Part shown: piece after piece, positions 4,135 through 64,000 of the stretch | Layout: the number at the start of each line of letters is the position of its first letter | Position numbering within the stretch: the first letter of the stretch is position 1 | Assembly (NCBI GenBank): GCA_003024785.1 | Contig: PUQB01000201.1 | Span: forward strand, 43,497 to 107,496 | Source: Selaginella tamariscina | Taxonomy: Eukaryota > Streptophyta > Lycopodiopsida > Selaginellales > Selaginellaceae | Direction: 5' to 3' | Length of the DNA: 64,000 nt | The notes under the pieces: generated by a model | The model's database searches: none | What the model saw: the letters and a program-made list of their open reading frames with translations, nothing else | Told to the model about the DNA's origin: nothing | Translations under genes and position numbers: made by a program

Positions 4135-7111
4135 ATGGCAACTACGGAGCCCTTCAGGAGGTGAGCTGCGCCTAAAACACACATAACACACACACGCATA
4201 CGCGCGCCCACATACCGAGCACACACAAACACACACACACGCACGCACGCACAGATACATACAGACACGGCGCATACAGTGCTGATTTGTGTGAGACAGG
4301 CTTGTGAAGCTAGTGGCTAGGGCTTTCTATGACGATGAGATTCCCACAAGGGCGCAACCCTAGCAAATCCTCCAAATCCGATAATAAGGGCATCTCTGTT
4401 GTCGTCCTCGATGCCCTTACACGGTATCTATACACATGACACTCATATACATATATGTGTCATATATACACGGTATATAGATCTGTTTATCCTATTCAAG
4501 TTAGATATTATATTATATTATAATTCCTTTGTTTTGTCTTGTGTATACAAAGTCATATCGGTTATGTATGTTTATGAACTTCTTATTCATTGGGATATTG
4601 TACAATGTTCTGTTAATATAATACTTACTGCTTCATTTTGGTATATCTTTGTTTCTATATATGTATATATTATTTATGATAATCAGTTTCATATATAACC
4701 TGATTTACTCTTGTAAATAGGAGACCGAATGCATCTGTGTATACTTTCCTTACGTCGTGTTTATTATATATAGAAAATTGTATATGCTGTATAATTGCAG
4801 GAGGCAGTGGGTAAAAGAAGAAGAACTTGCAAAATGCCTTAAACTTCACCCTAAACAACTGCGGAGAGCTCTGCGTGTCTTAGAGGACGAGATGCTCGTC
4901 GTTCGTGAGGATCACAAAGAGGTGTGTGTCAGTGTGTCTCAAATGCATATATAGGTATATAAAACACACACACGTGTGTGTGTGTGTGTGTGTATATAAA
5001 ATGAATATATATTTATGTGTTTATTTTAGTATAACATATTTATATATGTACAGACTGTGAAAGCGGCAAAGGCATATAACACAGCAGTCGCAGTAACAAC
5101 AGATGGACAGCGCGAGGGTTCTCAACATGACAAGCAAAAGGTGCTTTTACACTCTTACTGCTGTCTGGATTACGCTCAGGTATGTATGGATACTTTTAGT
5201 ATTTAAACTTAGATTAATGTTGTATCATACAATATATCACACGGAATCAATTTAAATGTTTCAGATATGCGATGTTGTAAGGTACCGTATTCACCGTGCG
5301 AGGAAAATGATAAAGGACAGATTAGAAGAAAAAGCACCGTCCAAGAGTATGTTTGTCCGGATCCAAATTGCGGCAGAAGGTATGTATTAGCGTTTTGGAC
5401 GCGCGTGTGTTGTGAATTCCATGCGATATTCACTTATATTTACATATAGACACATAGTATTATTTATATAGGAAAATATTTTTTTTATTCTTTCAGTCAG
5501 TCATTTTATTGCTTTCACTGTTTGTGTGTTGTGTGCGTGTATATAATCTTCAACACAAGACGCACACACGCACATACTGTCTATATTTGATATGGAAGTT
5601 TATATTAAGCAGTGATAGGTTTACACAGCAAAGCCGATGGACAAAATGGTGTTTAATCTATATACATATTTAGAGAGAAGCAATATGGTTCTCTCTCCCT
5701 CTCTCTCTTACACACACACACACACACCGATTATTTTTGTTTATTGAAGGTATTCGGTTTGGATGCATCGAGGCTTATAAGCTTTGTGGACCAGAACTTC
5801 CACTGTGAGAGGTGCGATGCAGAGCTTGTTGCTGAGAATGATAAGCTTGCTCCAAAAGAAGTCATGGATGGTGATAATGAAGAAAATGCCCGAAGACGGC
5901 AACGTGAAAAGCTTAAGGATATGCTTGAACGTTTGGAGGTAAATCAATTAATAGGTTTCACTAAACGTGTATATACACATGCACACATGGTGTATATGTT
6001 TAACTACAAATGTGGTTTCTAATATTTTAGGAGCAACTAAAGCCATTAAACGACCAGCTTAACAAGTTAAAGGACTTAATACCTCCAGATTATGGTTCAT
6101 TTGCCACAATGGCAAGAAAGTAAATAGATTGGTCCAAATTCCCGATTCAAAAATATCCAACGGTGACCGTTCCGACTCTGCAATCCCATTGTTTGATCCG
6201 AAGGTACAGATACAGATGTGTACATAGATATACAGTCTCTCTCTCTCTCTATGTGTGTGTGTGTGTGTGTGTGTGTGCATAGACACACACACACGCACGC
6301 ACGCACGCACAAAGGGAGAGAGAGCATTATCATCGTACATACTCGTCTACTTAATGAACCGTTAAACTCTGAAAAATAGTACTAACCATATAGCTTATAT
6401 AGGTGGAAGTTGCTTTAGGTGGAAATGACCAAAAGCAATTAAAAGGGGAGGGAGAGACATCGCAACCACAAAAAGTGCTCCCACCGTGGATGATCAGGAG
6501 GGGAATGAACTTGACTGCACAACAGGTTTGTACTTCTATTTAACTTATAATATTTTTATTCTGTTTTGAGTATTTTATAAGTAAGCTTAACATTAAAGCT
6601 TCACATAGTAAGTATTATAACGAAATATAAGTTTAATTAAGTTGTTAACCCTGGCAGCGTGGGGAGGTGAAAAGGGAGGAAAATGGATTTGCAGAAGTAA
6701 AGCCTGATGTGAAAGTTGATCAGAAGGATGTCAAATCAGAAACAGCTAATATACATGTGCGTGTCTCTCTCTCACACGCACGCACTCATACATACTTGGT
6801 TTTCTGCTTCAATTGCATTTTGAATGATTTTATGCCACATTTAAACCTGCAGTATCTTGTGTGTGTGTGTGTGTGTGTGTGGAGAGAGAGAGAATATAAT
6901 ATACAAATTACTTATAGATATAATTGTTTACAGGACGAGTACTTGAAGGCGGTTTTTGCTGCGTATACACAGAAGGCAGCAGAACAAGCACAAGCAGCAA
7001 GCATAGTGGCTGAGGAGCGTCAAGTGGGTATGAAATCCAAGCGCGAGGAAGCTGATACTGGGGAAGAAGCTGATGATGTTGTATGGGAAGAAGACACCAC
7101 ACAAGGTATCC

Positions 7112-8462: not shown

Positions 8463-11083
8463 CTTATATTTACATTACTGTTCAAATATACTCACAAAGA
8501 TAATTAATTTAATAAAATTAATTCTCAAATTGATAGGGCAAGTCTGCACAAGCTGTTGTATTCTATTGAATAACACTTATAAACTTTGAGCTAGTACACC
8601 CCGCAAGCCTGTAAGACAAATAGGTGTTCCACATGTTGAGTTTGATGTTAATACTAATGAAGGATTTATTATTAGTGTAGGTAAACCAAAACCTATGTAA
8701 CATTGTATTGCCAACTCTTTGTTGTGAACAATTTTGTCCTATATTGTCATTCATTTTGGGTTTGGAATTGGTTGAAACTTAATTTGGTTCTAGTAGAGAA
8801 ATGTTCATTTCCTTTATTATTGATTTGTTTTGGAATTGTGGTGTACTCGTACTTTATCCTATGAGAGTTGTTAGCCTTTATTGAACTAGACAAACTTCTT
8901 TTATGATGTTTTGTTTCATTTTAATCAGACTTCTAAGTGGGATCCCTAGAGATACTTCCTCGATCAAGTTGATTATGTTCGTCATAACTAGTTGATGTTA
9001 ATTCTTATTGAGTACTTAGCAATTATATCATTCTTTCATAGTCCCATCCCACTATGTGTCTGACAAATAATACAGATGTACAAAACTTATTTGTGGTCAT
9101 GGATGAATATGTCCATTGTATTCCAATCATAAACTTTATGTGGTGATCAAACACACATAAGCATCATGAAGAACTCCACATAATTGTTTATGAGATGAAC
9201 ACTTGAGTTTGTGCCTACTAAAGACATCTTAAATGCATATGGAATTTTTAGAGAACTATGTTGGAAAAGATGAATGACTCCAAAAAAGGCCATCACAAAC
9301 AATTCTCAAATGCAATAATTCATTTAAGACTTTATGATGCATTGGTTGTCTTTTCTTTGCTATATAGACAACATTTCTTATTCTGTAAAACTATCAACTA
9401 AATAATGGGTAAAAATTGTAACCACATAAGAAAATCTCAGCATCGAGGGTTGTCACTAAACACATCCTCGACGCAAGGTTGCCACTATGACACTGAGTGG
9501 TTCATCCTCAACATTGATGATGCAACTCCAACAAACCCTTGTAGAGGTATATGGAGGGTACATCCTTGGTGCTGAGGTTGTCAACATGCAAATGTATCAT
9601 TATAGTTATGTATGAGACAATAAAATAAGGGGAACACTTGTCAAATAGGAAAAAAACCTTGGCATTGAGGACAATATGCAAGGATTCATATACTCTATAT
9701 GGGGGTATATTTGACTTATTTACCTGCAATTGTTTGTCAATGGGATGAGTTCAGACAATGTCTAACACAACATCCCTTGTAATAGAACTTGCAAAAGCTT
9801 TAGGAGTAAGTGCAACTCATTCTTCTACTTCTTCAACAATAGCGATGCCAGAGACACCATGGGAAACTGGGTGTTCATGCATTGTAATATAAATCACTAA
9901 ATGCAACATTATTGTATTTGCCAAGACAATGATGTACTTTATCACATCGCATGTGGCCTTGCAATTAGGTTGCAAACCATAGTATTTGCAACATAGCTTC
10001 TTTCTCTTAAAGTAATCACACCACCCTAGGCCTTAATTATAAACCTCCAAAATTGTTCATTTGGTTCTTACTTTAAATTGTTGAAAGAAACATTTTGAGT
10101 TAATGCACGCAAGATGGCCTCCACAATAACTAATCAAATTGCACCGTTGAAATCCTTCCACATGGACTTGTTGTATTTTAAATGTGTCCATCATCTTTCT
10201 ATCTCATGCCATCAATTGTTTGTGTTTCTACAAGTGATAAAGGTGGAAGTTTAAATATCATGTTACCATTGTATATAGAAGGTACTTCCTTGCATACACA
10301 TTTGCAACACATATTGAGTAACTACCTTGTTGTTTGATTCCTCTGTAATAATTTGTCATATAACAAATTATTGTTGTATGAAATGTTACCTACAAACAAA
10401 GCATTTGATAGACTTTATGTAAAATTTGTTTGTGCATGGTTGACCTTTGGCAAATTGACTATGCATAGGTTGTTTTAAATCACCCAATGTGGTATCACAT
10501 CAATAACTTTGTTCCATGCTATAAGAAACTCGAGCCCAAGTGAGGGATTTACTATGTAAACGCCATTTTAATGGGGAAATCACCTTAGCAAGTTCATAAT
10601 TTACTTGTGAGTTAAATGCATAGTGCAATGGTTTGGAATGTTGAAGTCCGCATGGAAAGTAAAGCTAGTTGACTAGGGTTTTAGATCTAGGGTTTGTGAG
10701 GCCAAGGTTTGTGGCGGCTAAGGATACATGGCACTTCAACAATCTCTTTTATAATATTGTCCATCTTTAATCCAACTAGATTTCTTCAGTCCTTGTTTCC
10801 CATTGTTTCTCTTAATTAATTTCTAGTACATTTCTTCATTCTTATTCTTTTTCTTTAATTGTGGCATTTTTTTGTTTACGGTGTTTTTCATTCATTTTAT
10901 ATAGTCACAAGAATTCTTCGTTTCTTAGAATTTCTATTTATCTTTAGCTCTTCAGAGAATTGCTAGATTCATAATCATTAAGGATGGGCCTTTCATTCCT
11001 CGGTGCCAAAGATGGGGCTGAGGATGAGCAAATAGTCCTCGGTGTCGATTTGCTAAATGGTTTAGAGAGGACCACTAGTTTTA

Positions 11084-11272
11084 TTGAAGTCGAGTGAGCA
11101 AGTGCATGCATTATCAAGGAATATGAGCGATCTAAAAGACTTTTTTAGACAAAATGAATACATTAGCACAGCTCAAGCTTTTGTGGTGATCGTTGGCAAG
11201 GAACTTAATCCAGAAAAAAGAAAAAAAATAGAAAAGCACAAGTATTGGAAAGACATATGCAAGTCTTTTTAG
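11084..11272 (+). pseudogene. Coding fragment of repeat family R
   Basis: A 62-codon open frame with NMSDLKDFFRQNEY and QAFVVIVGKELNPEKRKKIE. A diverged version is readable in the inverted copy at 22380-22570 on the minus strand (NMSDLMDSFKQN, then KELSPEERKEIEEHK after one frame break). Conservation of the amino-acid pattern between copies suggests the ancestral element coded for a protein here. I do not recognise the family. Confidence 0.4.
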
Positions 11273-11900
11273 AAACAATGTTGAGAGGTGATCCTTATAG
11301 ACAAAACATTTGACATCTAGGATGGTAATCATCACCTATAGTGGATGAGCATCATCAAGGATGAGGACCCTTACTACTCCAACAAAATTTACCATGTGTT
11401 CGTTAAATGCCACTTGTTAAAGATAACATAAGGCTTCTTAAATTATGCTGCTCCTTTAGGCTATGCGGAGAACAAATGAGTAAGCACATGGTGAATTTTT
11501 TTTTCTATTTTAAATACTAAAGTTTGTTATGCAAAGTCTTGATAACACATCACATCTCAATGGAGTGGCCATGCGTTAGGGGTCCAAGAAATCAGCTCCT
11601 TTATTCATCAAAATCTCAACAACTCTAATAAAACCAGGCAACTACATCTTGGACTTGTTCATGGGTACTAAGAAATTACTTTTGTTAAAGTTGTAATGTG
11701 AAGGAATGTTTTGAGAGTGGTTATAAATCAAATAATTTACTTGCATGTAAAAGAGATAGTGTTAGCAAACCTACTAAAACCTTTACATTTTAAGCAAATG
11801 TTTGAACCAAAGAAAGAGCTTAGAGAAATTTTGAGTAATGACCTAGAATCTGAGGACGAGAGTTCAAACAATAATAATTCAACATTTTGTACTTTAATGA

Positions 11901-48043: not shown

Positions 48044-48628
48044 CTACTGCTTAAGTTGTTCGATGCATTGTGCTCGATACTCCGGTGACGAATCCGACAG
48101 TTGAACCTGTTGAGATGAACACCACCCCAAAACTGGAATCAAAGGAGCTGTATGTGTGATACAAACAGTAACAAGCTTCTCTAGACGTAAAGGAACAGAC
48201 TGCAGAGACACAGACTCCAAGCATAATACAGGAGGAGAGAGTGAAAAATCACACATACCTTTCGACTGCTTCAACCAGTCACATCCCAGAATAATGTCAA
48301 AGACCTGGGAAGGGACAACCCTAAGAGACCCAGAGGGAAACTTACGATTGTCACCCAAAACCAGCGTAGTTGAAGTGGTGTACTGTGATACTGCACGAGA
48401 TTGCCCATTACCATATAAAATGTGCAAGACCTTATCTGCACGTCTTAAGGGTAATGAGCACCGATGCGCTAGAGAAGAAGTTATGGAAGACATACTGGAT
48501 CCTGTATCCACAAGCACTGTGACTGAAAGATCGTTCACTCGTGCAGAAAATGTGAAAACTGGATGGTTTGGTGGAACTTGCAAAACCTGATATGCATAGC
48601 AGAAAAAGCATGGAGGTGAAGTCTCCAT
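48044..48628 (-). CDS. Gypsy aspartic protease region
   Basis: An open frame of 194 codons. The protease core has LVDTGSS (catalytic Asp near residue 41), then QVFDIILGCDWL, the second half of a retropepsin fold, followed by a linker ending in EYRAQCIEQLKQ. Upstream on the same strand (48860-48780) a Cys/His-rich stretch CWACWAPRHTWRAC resembles a degenerate gag zinc knuckle, with a frame break before the protease. A fragment of a larger polyprotein. Confidence 0.8.
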   Translation of the reverse strand: METSPPCFFCYAYQVLQVPPNHPVFTFSARVNDLSVTVLVDTGSSMSSITSSLAHRCSLPLRRADKVLHILYGNGQSRAVSQYTTSTTLVLGDNRKFPSGSLRVVPSQVFDIILGCDWLKQSKGMCDFSLSPPVLCLESVSLQSVPLRLEKLVTVCITHTAPLIPVLGWCSSQQVQLSDSSPEYRAQCIEQLKQ

Positions 48629-48888
48629 CGCACGGGATCCCTCCGTCGCCCGTACGATTACTGGTTTTCCGCAACAGATCCATCTGCAAGAGAGGCTTCA
48701 TCATCTGGAAGCTCATCATCAGACATAATAGCCGCACAGGCACACCATCCGGAACATATGGGCCAGCCTGGATGTGGTGGACGCCAATCAGGATACACAT
48801 CGCATGCCCGCCAAGTATGTCTAGGCGCCCAACAGGCCCAACAATGAACTTGATTGGGTCGACCTGCATTGTTCCGATTCCTCCTGTA

Positions 48889-49232
48889 TTACGCTTGGAG
48901 TCTGTGTCTCTGCAGTCTGTTCCTTTACGTCCAGAGAAGCTTGTTGCTGTTTGTATCACACATACAGCTCCTTTGATTCCAGTCTTGGGGTGGTGTTCAT
49001 CTCAACAGGTTCAAATGTCGGATCCGTCACCGGAGTATCGAGCACAATGCATCGAACAACTTAAGCAGCAGTATGCAAGTTTGTTCAAATTTGATCTGTC
49101 CCAAGGTGCACGTGTGAAGACTCGACACTGTATACCCAGGCAATGCAAAGCCTTTCAAAGTCCCGGTTCGACGCAGGTCACCAAAAGAGTTATCAGCCAT
49201 GCGAACAGCTGTTACAGATATGATCGGTAAGG
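48889..49232 (+). pseudogene. Second copy of the protease-RT linker
   Basis: Starts in PPVLRLESVSLQSVPLR and continues through GWCSSQQVQ and EYRAQCIEQLKQQYASLFKF, parallel to the minus-strand copy. The two copies differ at about five of 63 residues. A frame break near 49225 separates it from the reverse transcriptase frame at 49233. Confidence 0.7.
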
Positions 49233-50663
49233 GTGTGTCGTCCATCACGGAGTCCATGGGCATGTGAACCTCATTTGGTTCCCAAGCCTGATGGATCTCT
49301 ACGATTTTGTGTGGATTACCGACCTCTCAACGATGTTACCATCAAAGATGTCTATCCACTTCCGAACTCTGCCGATCTATTAGATCGTTTGGGTCAGAGT
49401 CGATGGTTTACTAAGTTGGATTTGGCATCAGGATATTGGCAGGTTCCTATGGCTGAGGAGGATATTCCAAAAACGGCCTTCCGGACACCATTTGGTCTTT
49501 ACGAGTTTTTGGTCATGCCTTTTGGATTGACTTCAGCTCCTGCCACCTTTCAACGCATGATGGATGAGCTTCTTTCCGATATGCCTGATATCACTGCCGA
49601 TTTTATCGACGATGTGCTCATTCATGGGTCTGGTTCTTGGGAGGATCACATTCGTGATGTACGGCGCGTTCTTGATCGATTTCGAGAAGTTGGCCTGAAG
49701 TTGAAACTTGAAAAGTGTGTGTTTGGTTCGACCGACACCACTTACTTGGGTTACCGTATATCTCGAGAGGGTTTACAGGTGGATCCAATGAAGTTGCGAG
49801 CTGTTCGAGAGTTCCCTCGTCCCCGTACAGTACAGGAAGTCCAGCGTTTCTTGGGCAAGGTGCAGTACTTGGGTCGATTCATCGATCATCTCACTGATCG
49901 AACTGCCCCTCTTCGGGAGTTAGTTCATCCACAGGTATCTTTCAGGTGGACTCGCAGGTGTCAGCAGGCATTTGACCAGTTAAAAGAGTTCCTGACAACT
50001 CCACCATTGCTTCAATACCCAGATTTTACTCGTCCGTTCATTTTACGAGTAGATGCCTCAGATGTTGGTATTGGTGGTGTATTGATGCAAACTGATGCTG
50101 TGGATTCTTCAATTCGACACCCGGTGGCTTACATTAGTCGAGTACTCACGCCGGCTGAGCGGAATTATTCCACTACTGAAAAAGAATGCCTTGCTGCTGT
50201 TTGGGGTTTTGAACGACTTCATGCCTACTTACATGGGAGTGAAACACTTTTGGAGTGTGATCATGCTGCTGTCACTTCCTTATTAAAACGGAAGAATTTA
50301 GTGGGTCGCGTAGCCAGATGGGCATTACGTCTCCAGGTATATAACTTTAAGGTGGTGCACAGGCCTGGGCGAACAATGGTGGATGCGGATGCACTTTCTC
50401 GAGCACCCCTCTCCGATTCCACTTTGCCTGCTCATGCAGTAGTTGCAGCGTTCGGTTTGATACAAGCCCCTCAGGTATTCGATGCCGACTTACCATCCTT
50501 GGAACAGTGGCAGGATGCTCAAAAACATGAACCATGGACGAGGCAATTACGCGATGCGTTTGCAAATCCGTCTTCCGAACCTCGGTTTCGACAATATCAT
50601 GCTCAGTTTCGACTTCAGGATGGTTTATTGTATTATTTTATTGAAATCTTTCCTCGAATGTGA
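49233..50663 (+). CDS. Gypsy reverse transcriptase and RNase H (476 codons)
   Basis: A long open frame. Reverse transcriptase motifs are RFCVDYRPLND (about 24-34), WFTKLDLASGYWQV, YEFLVMPFGLTSAPATFQR and the active-site box FIDDVLI (124-130), where Gypsy elements usually have YxDD. An RNase H domain begins at LRVDASDVGIGGVLMQ (about 281-296) and HRPGRTMVDADALSRAP follows. It ends in the pre-integrase linker (FRLQDGLLYYF); the last seven codons come from the abutting repeat array. Integrase is absent. Confidence 0.93.
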   Translation: MCRPSRSPWACEPHLVPKPDGSLRFCVDYRPLNDVTIKDVYPLPNSADLLDRLGQSRWFTKLDLASGYWQVPMAEEDIPKTAFRTPFGLYEFLVMPFGLTSAPATFQRMMDELLSDMPDITADFIDDVLIHGSGSWEDHIRDVRRVLDRFREVGLKLKLEKCVFGSTDTTYLGYRISREGLQVDPMKLRAVREFPRPRTVQEVQRFLGKVQYLGRFIDHLTDRTAPLRELVHPQVSFRWTRRCQQAFDQLKEFLTTPPLLQYPDFTRPFILRVDASDVGIGGVLMQTDAVDSSIRHPVAYISRVLTPAERNYSTTEKECLAAVWGFERLHAYLHGSETLLECDHAAVTSLLKRKNLVGRVARWALRLQVYNFKVVHRPGRTMVDADALSRAPLSDSTLPAHAVVAAFGLIQAPQVFDADLPSLEQWQDAQKHEPWTRQLRDAFANPSSEPRFRQYHAQFRLQDGLLYYFIEIFPRM

Positions 50664-51513: not shown

Positions 51514-52151
51514 ACGTATATGCATGCACATGCACACACGATATATATGTGTGGGTACACACACATTTAAATGCAAAAGCAGAATATCATTTATGTGATA
51601 AATCCATTTCTCATAACTAATACCTTAAGTTTTAATATACAGCTCATGAATGTATACAGTAATATATAATATATCTTAGTATAGTATAGAGCGTGAAAGA
51701 TGAAACGTAACCGAAGTTTCTTTAATTCTAAATACTTAAAGATTGAATCTGAATTATTAATCAAAATAAATTAACTTATTCCACGTATGCCTGACATGAT
51801 TTGGGATACTTTAAGAATATTTACATAATATATTTAAAGCAGAATAGTATACTATTAAAATCTTTATTTCAATTCATTCTTATAAATATGTAAATTTATT
51901 TTGACTTTGATATAATTGATACATAAATACTATTGTATGAGTTTTAGTATCTATCCTCTATATGCAGCATATGCATTTATTCACAAATGGTTTGTTAGAG
52001 ATATTATATTCATGTATTACATATCTAGACATTAAATAGAATATAAAAATAATGATGAACAATTTCCACACAAGCATACTGTGCTTATGTAATCTGTTCA
52101 ATGATACATTGGTTTTGGTGGACTTCTCCTGTACTGAATCCTAAAACCATC

Positions 52152-52186
52152 GCATTAACCTTCTTAATGCTGCAGAAGGTTAATGC
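52152..52186. repeat. Hairpin with 13-bp perfect arms
   Basis: GCATTAACCTTCT and AGAAGGTTAATGC form perfect arms around TAATGCTGC. It is the best-preserved member of the promoter-derived hairpins. Confidence 0.7.
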
Positions 52187-52484
52187 TCCAACAATTATTA
52201 AGTGATAATATTCTTTATTTTTTATCTTTAAATGTGAACGTTAAGTAAATGTTCTAATCTATGTATAGACGTATATATTTGAACAACTTAATTTGGTAAT
52301 ATAAATTACTATCACGAAAGCAAAGTATATAGATTATATATAGTTTCTTTTACATCATACTTTTACTTACCATTTAAATTTAATACATATATTTGAAAAA
52401 TATCCTTTTTATTAAAGTAAACTAATTTATTTGTCTCATGTTTCCAAAATCGGTTAAACATCAGAATTTACTAAATTAAATCAT

Positions 52485-52643
52485 TTAAGAGGTACTACGG
52501 ACTGGTGGAATCGGTGGTGGAATGAATGGCGGTTGATCGTGTCTCGGTGGAGCGTAGATCTTGTCATCTTTGAGTGCGTAAACAAGAGCTCCAGTTGCCA
52601 CCACCGCTGCTGCCGCTGCATAATACATACTCTGGATCACCAT
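52485..52643 (-). CDS. Micro-protein gene, copy E (52 residues)
   Basis: Intact frame: MVIQSMYY, AAAAAVVATGALVYAL, KDDKIYAPPRH, DQPPFIPPPIPPV, ending RSTS. Compared with copy B it has lost one codon in the proline tail while keeping the frame. TATAAAA lies 36 bp upstream on the minus strand. It is head to head with copy F, 676 bp between start codons including the MITE. Confidence 0.6.
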   Translation of the reverse strand: MVIQSMYYAAAAAVVATGALVYALKDDKIYAPPRHDQPPFIPPPIPPVRSTS

Positions 52644-52679
52644 AATACTAAACCTTAAGACACCCTCGCTCCTTTTATA
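52644..52679 (-). promoter_or_regulatory. TATA box of micro-gene copy E
   Basis: On the minus strand TATAAAA (52673-52679), GGAGCGAGGGTGTC, then TTAAGGTTTAG. The telobox has one change (AGGG to AAGG). Upstream blocks AAAAGGTTAAT occur twice. Confidence 0.65.
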
Positions 52680-52926
52680 CCCTGCATTAACCTTTTCTAT
52701 TAACCTTTTCTATGCTATAACGAATATTCCTTGCAATTAGCAATATTAATCTTTTCCTTTTTGTTTGAAATGTTAACGCTCTTCAATCTAAATTAACACT
52801 TCAAGCGAAAAGGGAAAGATTATTATTGTTAATTAGTAATATTCGCAAGGAATATACGTTATAGCATGGAAAAGGTTAAGGATATCGTTTCATCAACCTC
52901 AGGACGGTTAGACTTTAATTTTTAGC

Positions 52927-53057
52927 CAGTGATTAAATCTGTAGTTGAAAAATGCTACGGAAATGTTTAATTACTAATTTAATTATTAATTTATTAATTA
53001 TTAATTTAGTTTAATTACTAATCCGTAACATTTTTTTTATTACGGCATGTACCACTG
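52927..53057. mobile_element. hAT-type MITE, copy 2 (131 bp)
   Basis: CAGTGATTAAATCTGTAG at the start and ACCACTG at the end, with the same body as the copy at 39066. Flanks TTTTTAGC (52919-52926) and CTTCTAGC (53058-53065) are a decayed 8-bp duplication. The sister module has the empty site ACTTCTAGCTGCAG at about 30214-30227. Confidence 0.75.
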
Positions 53058-53283
53058 CTTCTAGCTGCAGAATAAACTGGACGTTCACATTCCACACATT
53101 TTATATATAGATAGATAGATAGAGAGAGAGAGAGAATAAATATACACACACTAGTTAATTTAGATTGAATAACAACTCAACACTTCAAACGAAAAGGGAA
53201 AGATTATTATTGTTAATTAGTAATATTCGCAAGGAATATACGTTATAGTATGGAAAAGGTTAATGGAAAAGGTTAATGCAGGG

Positions 53284-53319
53284 TATAAAAGGAGCGAGGG
53301 TGTCTTAGGGTTTAGTATT
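53284..53319 (+). promoter_or_regulatory. TATA box and telobox of micro-gene copy F
   Basis: TATAAAA at 53284-53290, GGAGCGAGGGTGTC, TTAGGGTTTAGTATT, then the ATG at 53320. Two AAAAGGTTAATG blocks lie directly upstream. Confidence 0.7.
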
Positions 53320-53481
53320 ATGGTGATCCAGAGTATGTATTATGCAGCGGCAGCAGCGGTGGTGGCAACTGGAGCTCTTGTTTACGCACTCAAAGATGAC
53401 AAGATCTACGCTCCACCGAGACACAATCAACTGCCATTCATTCCACCACCAATTTCACCGCCAGTCGGAAGTACCTCTTAA
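53320..53481 (+). CDS. Micro-protein gene, copy F (53 residues)
   Basis: Intact frame close to copy B, with one Pro-to-Leu change (NQLPFIPPP) and the tail PPVGSTS. A longer reading from 53263 would need transcription to start before the TATA box, so the start at 53320 is preferred. Followed by the conserved GAGACAAATAAAT, with a poly(A)-type signal. Confidence 0.6.
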   Translation: MVIQSMYYAAAAAVVATGALVYALKDDKIYAPPRHNQLPFIPPPISPPVGSTS

Positions 53482-54244
53482 ATGATTTAATTTAGTAAAC
53501 TTTTGATGTTTTAATGAGTTTGGAAACATGAGACAAATAAATTAGCTTACTTTAATAAAAAGGATATCTTTTAAATATATGTATTAAGTTGATGTAAAAG
53601 AAACTATATATATAACTTTCGTGTAGTAATTTATATTACCAAATTAAGTTGAATTCAAGTTTATATATGTATAGAACATTTACTTGAACGTTTACATTTA
53701 AAGATAAAAGATAAAGAATATTTTGTTGGAGCATTAACCTTATGCAGCATTAAGAAGGTTAATGGGAGGGTTTAGGATTCAGTACAGGAAAAATCCACCA
53801 AAACCAATGTATCATTGAACAGATTACATAAGCACAGTATGCGTGTAGAAATTGTTCATCATTATTTTTATATTCTATTTAATGTCTAGATATGTAATAC
53901 ATGAATATAATATCTCTAACAAACCATTTGTGAATAAATGCATATGCTGCATATAGAGGATAGATACTAAAACTCATATAATAGTATATTATGTATTCAT
54001 TATCAACGAAAAATCCATAAAAGTCAAAATAAATTTACATATTTATAAGAATCTAAAACGAACATTCATACGCACACTTTACATGAATTAAAATACAGAT
54101 TTTAATAGTATACTATTTCGCTTGAAATATATTATGCAAATAATACATAAAGACTACTTTTGATTATATATATATATACCATTAACATTGTATAGCTGAC
54201 ATAAATTGTATATAAATCAACACGATATGATAATATTTAATTAT

Positions 54245-55504: not shown

Positions 55505-56960
55505 TCAAAGGTTACACACATTGAGTTCAGTCCATTTAGCCTTCTTCCAGTCTTCATACTCAATACGCATATGTCCGAGACGGATGCTCTCTTCAACAAA
55601 AAAGGTGTAGAGCACTGGTGGTTCCAAATCTATCCAACCTATGTATGTCCACGGTTCAGTCTTTGTCATTATATTAAGATAGGTTCTTAGCTTTTTCCTT
55701 GTCAAGTTTGGGATGATCACGTTGCACATTGTCTCAATCTCTGCTTTTGTTCTCTTTCTCACAAGATCAACAAAGTCCAATGGAAGCTGCATGTAAAATT
55801 GTTAACCAAAATACCAATTAAACAACAAACTTACCTTCTGAAACGGCTCAACTGCCTTAATCTTACATCTTGGCCATCGGATGAACACTCCACGATAAGT
55901 TAAACACTTTCCCAAGTTGGAACAATCGGGATCCCTTGAATCAACCTTCATACGCTCATATCCTGGCAAGACACTATTACAGAAAGTGCAACATCATGAT
56001 CCCCCAGAGGCCTGCATGCAAAAGAGTGATATAAAGAACCTCAAAACTATAGAAAACTTACTTGTTGTGAAGCTTTGCCATTCTATTGGCTTCCTTGATG
56101 ATGCCTCTTCCAATGGTTTTTTTACCATTCAAGATGTTCACCACTTGTAGTGTCTCAAGCTAAGAACAGGTATGTTGTAATGAAATAAATATTATTACAA
56201 CTGAAAACAATACCTCTTCTTTATTCTCTTGATCTTCTCCCAAGTCGTCGTGAACGTCATCCAAGTCATGAATGTACTTTGGCTCATCATCATGTTCCAT
56301 TTCATTGTCTTGCGTAAGCTCTTGCTCCTGCTCCTCCTAGTAAAAAAATTATAAAACATAACAAAGAAAAATACTACTTTAAATCACCTCCAAGGCCGTG
56401 ACTGTTACTTCACTCTTTTTTTTGGCTCTTTCTCCGATCGTTTCTCTTCATTATCACCTTCATCATCCTGCTAAACAAGTGTGCACACATATAACTTTAA
56501 AGAGAACTATGCAATGCTACTTACATCCGGCACAATACGACGTCTGTCTTTAGCCTCTTTGATGCTGGCACTTCTTCATCGTCACAACAATCCGCTTTAA
56601 GAAAGTTGCTATCCATCTCACAATCAGTAAGACATTCAGCCAAGTAACAACTTCCTACAAATATATGTACACATTAGATATATCTAGAAAACACATGTAA
56701 AAGGTAAAACTTTACTTCCTCAGTGATCTGTGATGCTTTTGAGCGTGAGAGGTACAAACGCTCCAGAACTGAGGCCGCTAACTTTACTTACCTTCACCTT
56801 CAACATTATGATGTTGGATTCCACGTACCAGCTTTGAACAACTCCACGTCCCACAAGCACCTCACGCTTTATAAAGAATGGTTCCGCTTCCTCCTATTCC
56901 TGAAGAGTTGCTGGCAGAATTCTACGTGTTCCAAGATGCACGTTGTAACTAAAGTGGGCA
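55505..56960 (-). CDS. Multi-exon acidic protein, C-terminal domain like plant transposon-linked proteins
   Basis: Spliced minus-strand gene. Exons in reading order: about 56960-56716 (uncertain), 56654-56525, 56467-56388, 56336-56214, 56159-56062, 56011-55835, 55786-55505, all with GT..AG borders. The middle is very acidic (DDEGDNEEKRSEKE; HDLDDVHDDLGEDQENKEE). Then come TLQVVNILNGKKTIGRGII, HNKPLGDHDVAL, YRGVFIRWPRCKIKAVEP and a C-terminal LPLDFVDLVRKRTK stretch. The 'IGRGII...LG...V...WPR' order recalls the DUF8039-type domain of plant transposon-associated proteins, which is only a family impression. Single-base frame breaks are needed near 56545, 56425 (A-run) and 55985. Confidence 0.5.
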
Positions 56961-57223
56961 TGATACGTGAAAATGGGAATATAAAATAAATTACTAATTA
57001 ATACTTAAGTTTTAATTATTAATTAATCATTTAATTAATATGTAATTAAGCCTTAAATATTAATTAATTAATTAATTAATCCTTCAATAACCTTACTTAG
57101 TAAGGAATATTCCTAAAATATCTTAGAATATTCATATTATTCTAAAAATAGTTTACAATAATGAAGAAATACTATCAAACATAATTACAAATGAAATCAT
57201 TTTCTTATCAACATGTTAATTTT

Positions 57224-58392
57224 TTATAAATACTTTCTTCCTATCATACAAAGAAATCTTTTCATTTTGTCTAAATCATCACTCTCCGGATTAATCAAAT
57301 CATTTTGGTCAATATCTTGATGTTGTTGCCACCACTTAACACTCTCACGAATGCAATTGGGAGTTGCCATCCTTGTTAATACATAAGATGTGATAAGAGA
57401 AGGTCTGCATAAAGGCTCATCTAAAAACTGACGTTCCTTAAGAATAATATTATAAAGCGCCCGGTTGCTATCCTTCATTTTATAAAATTCAATATCACGA
57501 GAAAGAAAAGCTTCAGGAAATGTATGATACGGTGGATACTGCTCACAAAAATTTTCGAGATTCTTCTTTCTGAGGCACGTATCCAAGTAGTTCACTAGCT
57601 CATCCATGATATCGGTATCAGAATATGGATCGAAAGTGATTGGATGAATACAAGCAATGTTTTGGTTGAGCATAGCCTTCTGAGGAGAGTCGTCTACTAC
57701 TAACATCTGTGCGTTCTTCATTATCCTTAAGCGACTGATCTCCCCATGAGTCCCAATTATTCTTTCATTCTTGAAGAAGTATGGCTTGCTTTCCTTTCTT
57801 ATATTGTGAAATTCGAGAGGTTTATAACATATTCGCTGGTCAAAAATCCAATCTTTACGAATCACCTCTTCTGCAACACTACAATGTTTCTTAAGTAAAT
57901 TCAACAGCGGTGTTAAGTTATGAATCTGCATGCATGACCAAATCCCCACAAGCGCACCCATCTCCTTAAGCTTTTGAAAGAGACGATCCAACCCTGGACG
58001 AAAAATAATATCATATCGAAATTTACCATGACAAGGAATGAAATCTCCTTGTTTGATTTTTTTTTCCTATCCTCGGGCCTTTGTCGATGAAGCAGAACAC
58101 CATTGACATCCAACAACACAATATGGCCATGAGTAACATGAGATAGCGTTGCCTCTTGAATACTTTGCAAATCACTTGTTTGCTCCCTTTCACATTTATC
58201 CGTTGCCACTATCTCGTTGCCTATCCCTTCATCATTTAATTGTACATCATCCTTACAAGATTCAGATATTGCATGCGCTGAAGAAATTGATTTCGGAATT
58301 GAAGCCAATAAAAATGATGATGAAGTGGCCCCCATGGTAACGATGTTTTGAGCTGCATTATTATCCATTTCCTGCATGAACTCTGTCATTCT
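57224..58392 (-). CDS. HAD-superfamily phosphatase of the NLI-interacting-factor/FCP1-like type
   Basis: Likely protein phosphatase-like domain. The N-terminal ~70 residues are unstructured. Then HIVLLDVNGVLLHR (58100-58130) matches the catalytic DxDG[T/V] loop, with the second Asp replaced by Asn, as I recall for some plant members. RPGLDRLFQKLKEMGALVGIWSC and later MLVVDDSPQKA (motif with paired Asp) complete the fold, with KPLEFHNIRKESKPYFFKN between. The two open parts join in one frame only if the T9 run at 58057-58065 (A9 on the coding strand) is off in length; across it the protein reads KKIKQGDFIPCHGKFRYD. No intron is needed. The 5' end may lie further upstream. Confidence 0.7.
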
Positions 58393-58662
58393 GACATGTG
58401 GCACAAGAAATTGTCGCCAAACCCCTCTCTTACCTCATGCAATGCTGAAAATCCATGTTCTCAATTATTTCATTACATCTGCAAAATGATAATTAGCTGA
58501 CCTTAAAATTATCAAGGTATATTATTTACCTTGTTAATGTGTGACCCATGTTTGAACTAAAAGCTTCATTAATCCTTGAGAATTTATTTTTCTGTTACAA
58601 AATTAAAAAAAATATACAAAAATGCCTTATGTTACACTCATTTACAACTATTCATCACTCTA

Positions 58663-61600
58663 TCAATTCATTATCAATTCTTCTTCGCTATTACCTTCTG
58701 AGTGAGGCGAAGAAGGTCTAAGCCGCTTGTGAGATGGTTCAAGATCTTCTGCATCTTCTATTGATGTTTCCATGGGTCCTGGAGTGTGCGAATGTTCTGT
58801 ACTCCTCGAGATAACTTCCGGTCTAATATCTGATTGAAGTTCGTTCTCAGACTCCGAGATTGAACCAGATTCACCTTCAGAGCTATCGCACTTATCTGGA
58901 GGGAACTTTCTCAAATACGCCTTTATGGATCGTTGGGGTACTCAGTTGAGACCCAATCTATCCACTTGTTCAGGTCCTCAACCATGGTCTTATCCTTTTC
59001 AACGGCAAACACACATGTATGCCGAAGGTAACACTCCTTCAAGACGGACCCCCTAGTGCAGTAGTCAAAAACCCACGCATCACTGTGAGGACCCCTAATC
59101 AAGTTGACGATGCTCCGTGCCGCTTGACTTGTAATGTTTGGATAACGTACATTGCCGAATACGTCACTCATACCTATCGGTGTATCGGATGGAGGTTCAG
59201 GGCCGTTGGAGTGCAAACAGATGCCTGGCCAGTCATTTGGAAGCTTGAAATTGTTTGGCGCATTCCTAACAACCAAGTGAACAACGTATCAATGCACTTG
59301 GGATTAGCATCGTTCATATAAAATCCTGTCCAACGATGTCTATTCTTCTTGGCGAAGGCGAAGGCAAAAGTATCGGTGACATGAGCAAGAATCAAGAAAT
59401 AAATACCTGAAAAAGTAGGTATCAGTGAAGAGCGCAAGCATGAATTCAATAATAAATACCTTCTATGTATATGCTTGCACGGCTAAGTTTCTCCACCAGA
59501 TCCTCTAGTGCCCTATCTGTCGAAAGATTTTTTGACACCCGCCGATCCATCACGAACAATTGAAACGGTTTCCTACAAGCAGTGATGTTACCCCATAAAG
59601 TCTCCGAATCTAACAACAAACATCTGTAGGGCTTGTCGTGATTCGTAGCATCCTCCTTTATAAGGTTCAATTCGGTTCTCCGCTGCTGAAGGACTGCCAT
59701 AAGAGAAGGCGTCATCCCAATGTTCTCCTTTTTGGCGTTGGCGTGCAATAGATTCTTGCCTAGATCTTCCGATTGGTTCACCCATTCGACAAGCATATCA
59801 TCGTTCGTCACATGCAAATATTTGCTGACCTCTTCATATGTTGAAGTCGAGGTCCAACCCAGTTTGTGGCAGTGTATTCCCAACCACTCCTTGAAATGCC
59901 TGACCGTCTTCAACTCCATTGCCTTGAGATGAAAAGGAGAGGTTGGGCTGCTGTTATTAATTTGTAGTTTGCCATCGATCACCAAATCAGCCAAGACTTC
60001 CATCTCCTCCATCGTTGTTCCATTTAAAGGCTTCAACCATGTGAGCTTGAAATCGTTGTCTACATCCTTTGTAGATTGAACAGACTTAGCCTTCGGCGTC
60101 TTACTGGGTTTCTTTGCAGACTTTTCTGAGGGCTCCCCTTCACTTGTCTGCTTCTTCTTCAGTGTTCCTTTTGAAAAGGATTCCATAATCCCCAACCATT
60201 TGGCAAAGATCCTATCTTCGGGGCAAGAAATCAACATCATCAGAAAGGATGTTTCCTTCCCGCCCACCTGGGCAAAATCAACTGCTGCAATTTCTTCAAC
60301 TCTCTGAGGAAAAAGACAGATTAATATACCGGCGAGATAAATCCCGCCCAAACAATTTGCTTACCCGGTATTCCGCAGATTGTGTATTCCCTGCGGTAGC
60401 TCTTTGTGGTCGCTGAAGAGATTCCCACACGGCTCGCGTGTGTTTAAACTTCTCCCATATTTTGCTGTTGTAGTGGTTGGTGTCGGCAGCGTCCCATTCC
60501 GCCGATAACTTATGGTACTGCTCGATTGTGAGATTCGGCTTAGCTAAAAACGCCGATCTTTTTGTCAGCTTCTCACGGGTATGCTCGGAAAGTTTTGTTG
60601 CCATCGTTCCTTTGTTGTGTTCATCGAGAAGTCGTTGGGCTGCCGTTATTGTGTGCTGGCCACTAATGATGTAGTACTTGATAGATTTTTATTCTCCGTC
60701 TGAATCTTCATGAGTTGTTCTGGTGTTGTGATCCAGACTTTGTCAGCGCCCTTCCTTCTTTCATAGTATGGACACAAAACAGCATTATGTGGAACGGTAT
60801 AAGAATTGTCGTCCTTCATCTTCTCCATGAGCTCAGCTACACGTTCCTGGTTGAGTGGCCTGTAATTGAAGTTTGGGTTGACGCTGCAATATTTAACCCT
60901 ACAAGGATAAATCTTATCATCCAACATCATTTCCTTGTGACTTATTGCAGCATGAGATGCCACAGGTGCAGCTGACAAAACGATTGATGATTTTCTTTTG
61001 CGATCCGAATCAACATGTGTGATCCCCGACTGCAGCTGTTCTAGTGTTCTCGGCACACTCTTCCAGCTCCCAAAGCTTCCTAAGCAAATTGAACGTGATC
61101 TGTAGAGAACCTGAGACCGAGCCACCCTCTCAATCTCCATTATGATGTCGCTGTGTTCTTCTTCAATGTGAAGAGGGAAGATTGCTCCACTTGCTGATTT
61201 TCTGTATTGTGAAGCAATATCTCCTGACAATACACCTACTCGATGAGTCTGAAGATTTCGAAGTAGACATCCAGATGGATCCCCTCCATAGATGGGCTTT
61301 CGTTGAGTTGAAGAAGAACTCCAAGGTCAACATCATTAGTGAACACGTGAACGTCATTATCCACAAGTCGACAAAACCACCCGAAATTAATGTTGTAACT
61401 GACGACCTCTGGATCCGAGAACGTGACATTGGATGGAACAAGGCATATGTGTCGAGCATCGTCCAATCTGGGTTCGCAGCCTGCTTTCGGGTGCTTGACT
61501 AGCGAATCTACTTTCCATTGTTTTGCTTGTCCATGAGATGTGACAGAGGTTAATTTGACAGCAGCCATGGTTGCTCCAATGCGCTTCCCATTTATCTTAA

Positions 61601-61803
61601 AATATGGCCAAGTTGATTCCAGAATCCCCCTGCCCATCTCTTCTCCTGCTCTTGTCTTTAATGTCACCTCAATTCCACATCTGAATACAAAAATGATTAG
61701 TTCAAGTATCCGAGTATAACAGATTTTATTTTAATTCTTACCCAGAATTTGACGACGACTCCATACTAATGACTCGATCTCCTTGTTTGATCAAATCGTC
61801 CTT
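58663..61803 (-). CDS. Large protein with a ParB-like domain and a degenerate DNA-methylase-like domain
   Basis: Exons in reading order: 61803-61742, 61680-60365, 60303-59460, 59406-58663; more 5' exons are likely. After a ~150-residue N-terminal region (GIEVTLKTRAGEEMGRGI) comes KYCSVNPNFNYRP, RVAELMEKM and IISGQHTITAAQRLL, matching the ParB/sulfiredoxin pattern (NPxxxR, then GxHxxxAA). A Lys-rich linker follows. The C-terminal part runs FQLFVMDRR (where beta-class methylases have DPPY), FTW, YPNITSQAARSIVNLI and AWVFDYCTRGSVLKECYLRH then FAVEKD, the order of COG0863-type methylases (DPPY first, FxGxG last) with key residues changed. It ends in an acidic tail (KCDSSEGESGSISESENE). Frame breaks at about 61235, 60690 (A-run), 59278 and 58927 (C-run). 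Homology calls are inference. Confidence 0.55.
60331..60348. promoter_or_regulatory. GGCGAGATAAATCCCGCC palindrome inside an intron
   Basis: A one-change version of the upstream palindrome cluster, inside the 61-bp intron (60304-60364) of the ParB-like gene. The match inside the same gene makes a chance origin less likely. Confidence 0.55.
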
Positions 61804-61905
61804 CTGCAAAATAATACACTATGAATACAAATCATATAAAAACGCACACACACTTGTATAAACCCGAATATACAAAAATAATACACAGAGAGAAGTAGAC
61901 GTAAT

Positions 61906-61994
61906 TAACTGTCCGAAGCTCACATTTGTGTTAGTGCAAAAGAAAGATAACATTTCGTTTTAGAACCACCACAAATGTGAGCTCTGGACAGTTT
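61906..61994. repeat. Inverted repeat with 25-bp arms
   Basis: AACTGTCCGAAGCTCACATT (from 61907) and its counterpart ending GAGCTCTGGACAGTT (to 61994) pair over about 24 bases with two mismatches around a 39-base loop. It lies about 100 bp upstream of the first mapped exon of the ParB-like gene, so it may be in a leader or intron. A small-RNA precursor or a tiny MITE are alternatives. Confidence 0.65.
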
Positions 61995-62107
61995 TACATA
62001 GATTCCTAGCTTTTACTCGAAATATTATGATAAGATGATAAAAGTAAATAAAATGAGATATGCAACTTATATATACTAATACACATATATATTCACATGG
62101 AAGGTGC

Positions 62108-62340
62108 GGCGGGATTAATCTCGCCACCCCTTCAATGCCTCCTGAAAGAGTGGGCGGGATTAATCTCGCCACCTTTCTGGAGGCCTTGAACGGGAGTGCG
62201 GAATTAATCTTGCCACCCTTCTCGGTCTCAGAGAGAACTGGGCAGGATTTATTTCTCACACTCACCTTCATTCAGTGACTCCAGAAAGGAGGCGGGATTA
62301 ATCTCGCCCACCATGTAAGGGATGGTTAAATGAATCTCCC
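62108..62340. promoter_or_regulatory. Cluster of GGCGGGATTAATCTCGCC palindromes
   Basis: Copies at 62108-62125, 62153-62170 and 62291-62308 are identical. 62197-62214 and about 62241-62258 are degenerate, and 62322-62340 is weak. Spacing is about 45 bp, so this is also a degenerate 45-bp tandem repeat. Each copy is a near-perfect 18-bp dyad. It lies 300-540 bp upstream of the first mapped exon of the ParB-like gene. The GGCGGGA half resembles E2F-type sites; binding is inference. Confidence 0.7.
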
Positions 62341-62469
62341 ACCCTTCGCAGTCCTCCATTGGTATGTTGTAAACCTTCTATCGTCTTAGACAGAAAACGT
62401 TTGGGATTGGTCCGACTCACCAATATGCAAGTTGTAACTAAATGGGCATGGCTATAGTCCCATTTCCTA

Positions 62470-62970: not shown

Positions 62971-64000
62971 TCAACGCTTCTTGACATCCCCCATATCGAA
63001 TGGATTTAACCATTTATAAAAATGCTGGGTCTTTTTGATTGGGAGACCATGTTTTCTAGGCACCATTATATCTTCGCTCTCCTTCTCTTGTCGCCTTTTT
63101 TGTGGTTTGAAACCATGCAACCTTAAAATACTATTTTTTGTGATTACTTCAGGTGTGTCGATAATTTGACCCATCCAAATAGGCTGATTATATGACGCAT
63201 CTGGAGTAATGAGAACCATCATTAGTTTTTGAAGATCCTTGCAGCAATCAAAGTATGCTTTAGGTTTTTGGTTCCTTTGTCCAACAAAGTGTGGGGTTTG
63301 CACTCCACATCACTACTGGCTTCTATGTCGTCTGTGCTCAGTGATGTCATTTAATCTCCCTCGCCACCTTGTTTTAGGCCAGAAAGGGTGTTGCAATTCT
63401 GTACTTGTGACAGTAGGCCCTTCCAACTCTCGAACAACAGTCTCCAATAGTTGACCACATGCTTATATAGTCTGAGTAACCAGTTGCCTTATCAGAATTC
63501 TTTGGGCATCGATTTTTGAACCCATGCCACATATTTTTTGATGCCATCAATAATAACCTCTTGTTCCTTGAGCTGGGCACTCAATGGAATAGGGTCTGGT
63601 TGTCCTTCTGGGAGAAGTGGCTTTCCATCCTCTCACTTTTGAAGAGCATTAAAGCCCTCTTTCGGTAACCACTTCCTGTCTAATGGCCGTAACTTGTACT
63701 GCATAATAGGTATACCATCTCGTATGGAGAAAAAGAATTGTAGCGGCACAAGGTGACCAACTAAAGAATCATCCCTTCTTTTATATACTCTTGAGAAATT
63801 TTTTGAAGTCTGGCACCTCAGTCACAAGCAAAGCACAACTTTTTTTGGAGATGCAATTTTCAAAAAGATTCATCATATGCGGTAAGGTAAGTGCACTTGT
63901 CCTTTTTGTAGAGTTGGAGACCTTGCTGAAGAACGCATCAATATCTTCATGAGTGTGACCAACCATAAGGAAACTGAGCGTGATTGTTTCAAACACACCT
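62971..64000 (-). CDS. Partial gene with GHTHEDID motif (DUF7869-like, mobile-element linked)
   Basis: Runs off the window at the 5' side. Reading order on the minus strand: LSFLMVGHTHEDIDAFFSKV (from about 63975), LVGHLVPLQFFFSIRDGIPI, KLRPLDRKWLPKEGF, EDGKPLLPEGQPDPIPLS, QHPFWPKTRWRGRLNDITEH, KPKAYFDCCKDLQKLM and YNQPIWMGQIIDTPEVI, ending in HFYKWLNPFDMGDVKKR. GHTHEDID with a following FS is the signature I associate with DUF7869 proteins, often next to transposons. At least five frame changes are needed, several at A or T runs (for example near 63795), so it is either a decayed copy or hit by consensus errors. Confidence 0.5.

Follow-up and report, generated by a model that had tools for sequence, protein, structure and literature searches.

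The window analysed here, a stretch of 64,000 nucleotides from the lycophyte Selaginella tamariscina, contains on its minus strand an intron-containing gene whose predicted protein shows a ParB-like pattern followed by segments placed like the motifs of a DNA methylase. The question raised by this locus is whether such a gene belongs to the plant itself, as supposed in an earlier note made from the window sequence, or to a mobile element, and what its product may do.

The gene is carried by a high-copy DNA transposon

The ParB/methylase-like gene is cargo of a DNA transposon of about 14.6 kb with terminal inverted repeats (TIRs), hereafter the F1 element, which is present in high copy number in the assembly searched (300.7 Mb, 1391 contigs). 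In the full copy on contig C402 (copy A) the unit extends from TTGCAAGTTGTAACTAAA to TTTAGTTACAACGTGCAT and has terminal inverted repeats; in left-to-right order it contains a DUF7869 gene pointing leftward, two palindrome arrays, the rightward ParB/methylase-like gene and a NIF gene. That the element would be larger and include a DUF7869 gene in divergent orientation had been predicted from an inverted match between two array ends, and the content of C402 then agreed with this. On contig C440 (copy B) the whole unit of 14,556 bp is nested within another copy, with the left flank matching copy A up to position 5976 and the right flank from 5978, so that here a unit bounded by terminal inverted repeats has inserted whole, as is characteristic of TIR DNA transposons. 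A possible target-site duplication reads TATAT/TATAT in C402 if the unit starts at TGCA and CTTAA/TTTAA in C440 if it starts at ATGCA, an uninterrupted copy having CTCAA, and none is evident at the third full-length copy (C462); two of the three full-length copies are compatible with a 5-bp duplication, under differing end definitions.

The abundance of the element was estimated in several ways. A genome pattern search with the right-end 21-mer CACTTTAGTTACAACGTGCAT found 576 + 592 exact copies, 1,168 in all, and none of the reversed control, and the 18-mer GGCGGGATTAATCTCGCC has 3,510 + 3,500 exact occurrences, again with 0 for the reversed control, while the 65-base right end gave no matches in a DNA search which skips very common words. 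At least 150 copies of the exon with the motif-I position are present, each with 100% identity across 118 or 119 residues (150 scored of 4,248 candidates), and 150 of 4,249 candidates were scored for the DUF7869 exon; the numbers of candidates were not taken as copy numbers, because 150 were scored in each case. A listed DUF7869 exon is located 8.9-11.5 kb from 16 of 29 ParB-half copies, strand and side being disregarded, these 29 having been picked by eye from the 150 listed ParB-half copies on contigs found in both lists. The suggestion of the earlier note that the protein may be domesticated, if taken to mean a host gene, is contradicted by the finding that an abundant transposon carries it.

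The window itself includes the ParB/methylase-plus-phosphatase half of one copy (56936..62424, minus strand), which matches copy A at 98.8% identity over 5.5 kb and copy B at 98.3%. Its phosphatase-side TIR, TGCACGTTGTAACTAAA (56937..56953, plus strand), was identified by TIR comparison and by the count of right-end copies. On the right side this half is cut inside the palindrome array and abuts the DUF7869-side end of a second copy, the TIR of which lies at 62426..62442 (plus strand; TIR comparison). On the minus strand, 62974..64000 belongs to the DUF7869 (transposase-like) gene of that copy, which runs past the window (PF25273, E 3.7e-20), the equivalent gene in copy A matching the same family with E 7.4e-27. 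DUF7869 is a domain of unknown function, and no paper on it was found in the open-licence full-text library searched; from its place in the unit and its copy number we infer that it is the transposase of the F1 element. The NIF-type (HAD, CTD-phosphatase-like) gene at 57227..58434, minus strand, contains one frame break and matches PF03031 with E 2.4e-9 on the window ORF, compared to E 7e-12 for the ORF of copy A, a stop-to-stop frame of 403 residues in C402; at the first HAD motif it reads DVNGV.

Elsewhere in the window, the frames at 48044-50663 are presumably retroelement-like, with protease-like and reverse-transcriptase-like parts recognized by eye, and a long inverted repeat at 52000-53914, consisting of several arm segments, the longest of 236 nt at 95%, resembles a foldback element or a large MITE.

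Structure and reading frames of the ParB/methylase-like gene

The intron-containing gene with four frame breaks described in the earlier note is indeed present on the minus strand (58666..61803) and was read in the window sequence as the pieces 61803-61742, 61680-61240, 61236-60694 and 60688-60365 in its first half and 60303-59460, 59406 to about 59285, 59282-58926 and 58938-58666 in its second half. Two GT-AG introns are located at 60364-60304 and 59459-59407, and the frame breaks are found near 61240, 60690, 59285 and 58940.

Thirty loci, selected by identity over the motif-I exon, were read for comparison. The break near 58940 occurs in 29 of them and the break near 60690 in 11, with 13 loci intact at the latter, one differing and five in which the place was not found; copies A and B have neither of the two. 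The possibility that the frame breaks are private to the window copy was rejected, since those near 58940 and 60690 recur in other loci and are therefore not errors of this copy alone. The break near 59285 was seen in none of the 30 loci, which represent the top of the copy list, and is probably an inherited feature of one group of them in the genome, as the 121-residue frame of the window is shared by 21 of the 150 scored copies (hand count, window included). With frame breaks common to so many copies, most of them may make no full protein, and copies unable to encode the whole protein have thus multiplied, perhaps aided by other copies. Between copy A and copy B2, which is about 91% identical, the linker and C-terminal exons have dN/dS values of 0.28 and 0.53, respectively, and the phosphatase has 0.43, all of them pushed up because B2 is a decayed fragment.

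ParB-like and methylase-like regions of the window protein

The ParB/Srx-like region (KIYPCRV...NPNFNYRPLNQERVAELMEKMKD...YIISGQHTITAAQRLLDEH) is encoded at 60617..60915, minus strand, and was assigned from its sequence and from global z-scores of 3.0 and 2.0 to the ParB-like regions of two related families of the same genome, F2 and F3 (see below), with no profile match. The ParB-like pattern noted earlier can be confirmed, as both blocks, NPNFNYRPLNQERVAELMEKMKD and YIISGQHTITAAQRLL, are present in the gene. Box II of the ParB_N domain (PF02195) has the form GxxR, a pattern that the window protein, with GQHT in this place, does not follow.

In the methylase-like half, the position of the catalytic DPPY-type motif IV is occupied by VMDRR (59539..59553, minus strand), which was found in 29 of the 30 read loci and not found in one, and the position of the FxGxG SAM motif I by FDYCTRGS (59046..59069, minus strand; FDYCTRGSVLKE read from 59069 on that strand). 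The latter is present in 30 of 30 loci, an agreement which is not independent because the loci were chosen by identity over this very exon. Both segments read as they had been given in the earlier note, and neither DPPY nor FxGxG is present in the window protein, so the observation that the catalytic residues are replaced stands as well; both positions are also changed in copy B2 (VMDRH and FDYYTRGS). The FTW block reported between them turned out to be an artefact of the frame break near 59285, all 30 read loci having CIDT-VVHLVVRN in that place.

None of the profile searches recovered the window protein. The matches to PF02195 and PF01555 that the earlier note had named as support are both absent: the joined ParB region matched no Pfam family, PF02195 included, the window protein had no PF01555 match, and a Pfam search with the ORFs of this gene gave only families below the threshold, IL31 and DUF6942 among them. 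No match was obtained at E up to 1 when the genome itself was searched with the PF02195 profile. The PHROGs database gave no usable match for the window protein (one family of unknown function, E 0.048), nor did IMG/VR, and the phage search gave E values of 2 or worse. Among the sequences of the PDB there was no match to the ParB half, and the methylase half matched two repetitive designed proteins over one stretch of 39 residues. An HMM built from 90 viral-contig ParB-methylases, kept for their length, motif position and lack of X out of 119 motif-bearing loci, showed a signal for the window protein not above that for shuffled sequences, and mean z-scores against 40 viral-contig proteins were 0.69 for the ParB region and 1.46 for motif I.

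Comparisons with the related families were graded by region. With hhalign against F2/F3, the score of the window was reached by 19 of 60 shuffles for the ParB region, 32 of 60 for the methylase, 40 of 60 for the middle and 41 of 60 for the whole protein; the best ParB alignment nevertheless placed the expected blocks against each other, at that score matched by 19 of 60 shuffles. Motif-wise HMMs ranked the motif-I stretch of the window 464th and 573rd with two models and the ParB stretch between 57th and 772nd. In pairwise alignment, the global score of the ParB-like region to F2 was reached by 4 of 500 shuffles and the local score by 5, the respective values being 16 and 33 against F3. For the motif-I region 8 of 500 shuffles reached the global and 196 the local score against F2, and 247 and 321 against F4, a fourth kind (see below), while for the whole methylase half against F2 the counts were 30 and 390 of 500. 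Single-sequence AlphaFold2 models were of low confidence, with a mean pLDDT of 48.9 for window positions 60649-60990 (114 aa, part of the ParB region, predicted order E-H-E-E-H) and 44.0 for 58926-59288 (121 aa, C-terminal part).

The assignment as a ParB domain joined to a degenerate beta-class methylase finds no profile match and weak pairwise support in the window protein and draws on its context, the ParB-like/PF01555 proteins that stand in the same position in F2 and F3; on this analysis we regard it as plausible.

Related families in the same genome

The genome contains at least 150 matches to PF01555, each over the cut-off (150 scored of 739 candidates), and the 20 loci fetched from among them fall into F2 and F3. 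Their proteins consist of a ParB-like N-terminal half with CWDGNHRL, the box II being GNHR, a long middle part and then the methylase half, in which the catalytic position reads DLPN in 19 of 20 loci (not found in one) and motif I reads WDIGSGTG in 20 of 20. The joined C-terminal half of F2 matches PF01555 with E 3.5e-9 (37.4 bits at a cut-off of 26.7), and the ParB-like part of F2, which is 58% identical to that of F3, has no Pfam match. Searches of IMG/VR with F2 pieces gave no match.

Both families also possess palindromes and a second gene. The central array of F2 is composed of CCCAGTCGGCATGCCGACTGGG at a spacing of about 40 bp, of which the copy that was read has 8 exact occurrences and the genome 1,092, and on 6 of 9 listed contigs (C10, C58, C69, C72, C90 and C112) a PF01555 match lies about 3.2 kb downstream of the palindromes on the expected strand; on C1, C13 and C132 no such match is among the PF01555 matches listed. 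The half-site, CAGTCGGCA, is common to F3, which arranges it differently. Across the array from the ParB/methylase gene, each of the two families has a transposase-like gene pointing leftward, and these genes are homologous, with 50-88% identity in matched stretches. A tblastn search with the F2 protein had no match within the F1 unit of C402, and two F2 pieces of the gene scanned against Pfam gave no family over cut-off. This gene was seen with GFMSDE..CLFH blocks on contigs C639 (loci L189 and L185) and C1293 (L187 and L193), and a CxC..CxH stretch in the F3 gene is presumably SWIM finger-like. F2 and F3 thus follow the layout of F1, with a ParB-like N-terminal half, a methylase and their own repeated half-sites, and it is this agreement in architecture that carries the case for the window protein.

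The window contains, in addition, a relic of F4, a decayed ParB/methylase gene at 10960-11880 on the plus strand with DGNHH near 11326, KPGNYILDLFMGT in 11580-11693 and KECFESGYKSNNLLACKRDS near 11700-11760. A query made from the relic has 52 genome matches at E up to 10; by hand count, 27 of these have an E of 0.001 or lower, and the window itself accounts for two of the 27. PF01555 is found in three of four F4 pieces at E 4e-4 to 0.03, below the Pfam cut-off, and was not found in the window relic. At one locus on another contig (C1085:47300-48600) the remnant of an F4-type methylase is separated by about 0.6 kb from remnants of DUF7869 exons very similar to those of F1, which means either that elements of the DUF7869 type have had more than one lineage of methylase or that the copy is nested or chimeric.

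Palindrome arrays and proposed role of the protein

The palindrome of F1 is GGCGGGATTAATCCCGCC and differs from those of F2/F3. In C402 two arrays, of 13 and 21 sites, flank the centre of the element in the interval that separates the divergent genes and are thousands of bases away from its terminal repeats, and one further site lies in an intron; the 35 sites of the unit were counted at up to 3 substitutions, 24 being exact, and 50 single-base shuffles gave none. The dyad cluster reported in front of the window gene is real, with five window sites at up to 3 mismatches against a mean of 0.00 in 100 shuffles. Four of these, at 62108, 62153, 62197 and 62291, are the rest of the central array (62108..62308, plus strand), which is longer in C402, and one lies within the intron 60364-60304 (60331..60348, plus strand), where it was found in 27 of the 30 read loci. 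Family-specific motif arrays in the non-coding DNA of an element are the arrangement known from the VANC system discussed below.

Our main reading, to which we give a probability of about one half, is that the transposon-encoded window protein would descend from a fusion of a ParB-like protein with a beta-class N6/N4 methylase, that its methylase part, having lost motif IV and motif I, would no longer methylate, and that the ParB-like part together with the dead methylase part would bind the palindromes that the element itself carries in its divergent promoter region and within one intron. Such binding would set the expression or silencing of the element, as VANC does on VANDAL elements. A DNA-binding protein rather than an enzyme is our best guess for the window protein.

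A less probable but serious alternative is that the palindromes belong to the DUF7869 protein, or in F2/F3 to the other transposase-like protein, and that the ParB/methylase-like protein has another task. A transposase-like gene also adjoins each array, and F2 and F3, with the common half-site CAGTCGGCA, have a homologous transposase-like gene besides the ParB/methylase gene, so that in these families either protein may own the half-site, because both genes are shared. The position of the arrays between divergent genes, thousands of bases away from the terminal repeats, and the site within an intron of the ParB/methylase gene itself speak against this assignment.

Somewhat more doubtful is the view that the window protein is an unrelated transposon protein with ParB and methylase patterns by chance resemblance. 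The lack of a fitting profile or solved-structure match and the low confidence of the structure models are in its favour, but the protein shares its position and plan with the F2 and F3 proteins, and its ParB-like blocks occur in the correct order with a score to F2 that was reached by 4 of 500 shuffles.

A bolder reading, which we consider improbable, is that a ParB-type protein with a decaying methylase loads on the central palindromes, spreads and prevents silencing, a parS/ParB-like module having been taken up on two transposase-like backbones; if true, bacterial partition machinery would be found in selfish eukaryotic use.

That an active methyltransferase with atypical motifs is encoded here and marks its own element, as the Ectocarpus authors suggest for their protein (PMC12477816), is more improbable still: F2 and F3 do retain WDIGSGTG, at all 20 loci read, and DLPN, found at 19 of them, but in F1 both motifs are replaced, by VMDRR and FDYCTRGS. 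The replaced catalytic motifs would also suit a host gene that had been domesticated for sensing or DNA binding, a reading made highly improbable by the 150 scored near-identical copies, the 1,168 exact element ends and the unit nested in its own kind.

Comparison with known systems

The closest known kind are the ParB/methylase transposon proteins described for brown, green and red algae, among them Sola1-1_Ec32 of Ectocarpus, where a ParB-like and DNA methyltransferase protein is an accessory protein of a DNA transposon (PMC12477816). F1 resembles Sola1-1_Ec32 in encoding a putative ParB-like/N4-N6 methylase fusion on the strand not used by the transposase gene and differs from it in the DUF7869 backbone (in F2 and F3, the other transposase-like gene), in the replaced catalytic motifs and in the phosphatase gene that follows; the central palindrome arrays of F1-F3 may likewise set them apart from the Ectocarpus element. 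No plant or moss report of such proteins was found in the open-licence full-text library searched. The fusions are thus already known from algal transposons, whereas the backbone, the arrays and the decay look new. ParB/methylase transposon proteins are now seen in a plant genome, in which a plastid D1 gene of plant type is also present, tied to specific palindrome arrays which are candidate binding sites, and F1 has coding exons at dN/dS below 1 between two copies even though the catalytic residues are gone.

The fusions of phages and bacteria share with the window protein the order of ParB-like half, motif IV and motif I; the window protein differs from them in a longer linker and in its signal to the viral-contig HMM, not above that of shuffles. 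parS/ParB partition systems combine a ParB-like domain with clustered palindromic sites in cis, and the F1 element likewise has a ParB-like domain with clustered cis palindromes, the box II to be compared with theirs being GQHT in F1 and GNHR in F2 and F3; no gene resembling ParA was noticed in the element.

The VANC family of anti-silencing proteins, which bind their motif and lead to a loss of cytosine methylation, is not known to be related to the protein of the window. The VANDAL elements of Arabidopsis carry family-specific short motifs in tandem repeats in their non-coding parts, including introns (PMC5735166), and F1 resembles this system in combining a transposon accessory gene with motif arrays in the element's non-coding DNA and introns. 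Unlike the VANC case, the F1 motif is palindromic; if the F1 protein does bind the arrays, F1 would stand next to VANC as a second kind of motif-array system, independent of it.
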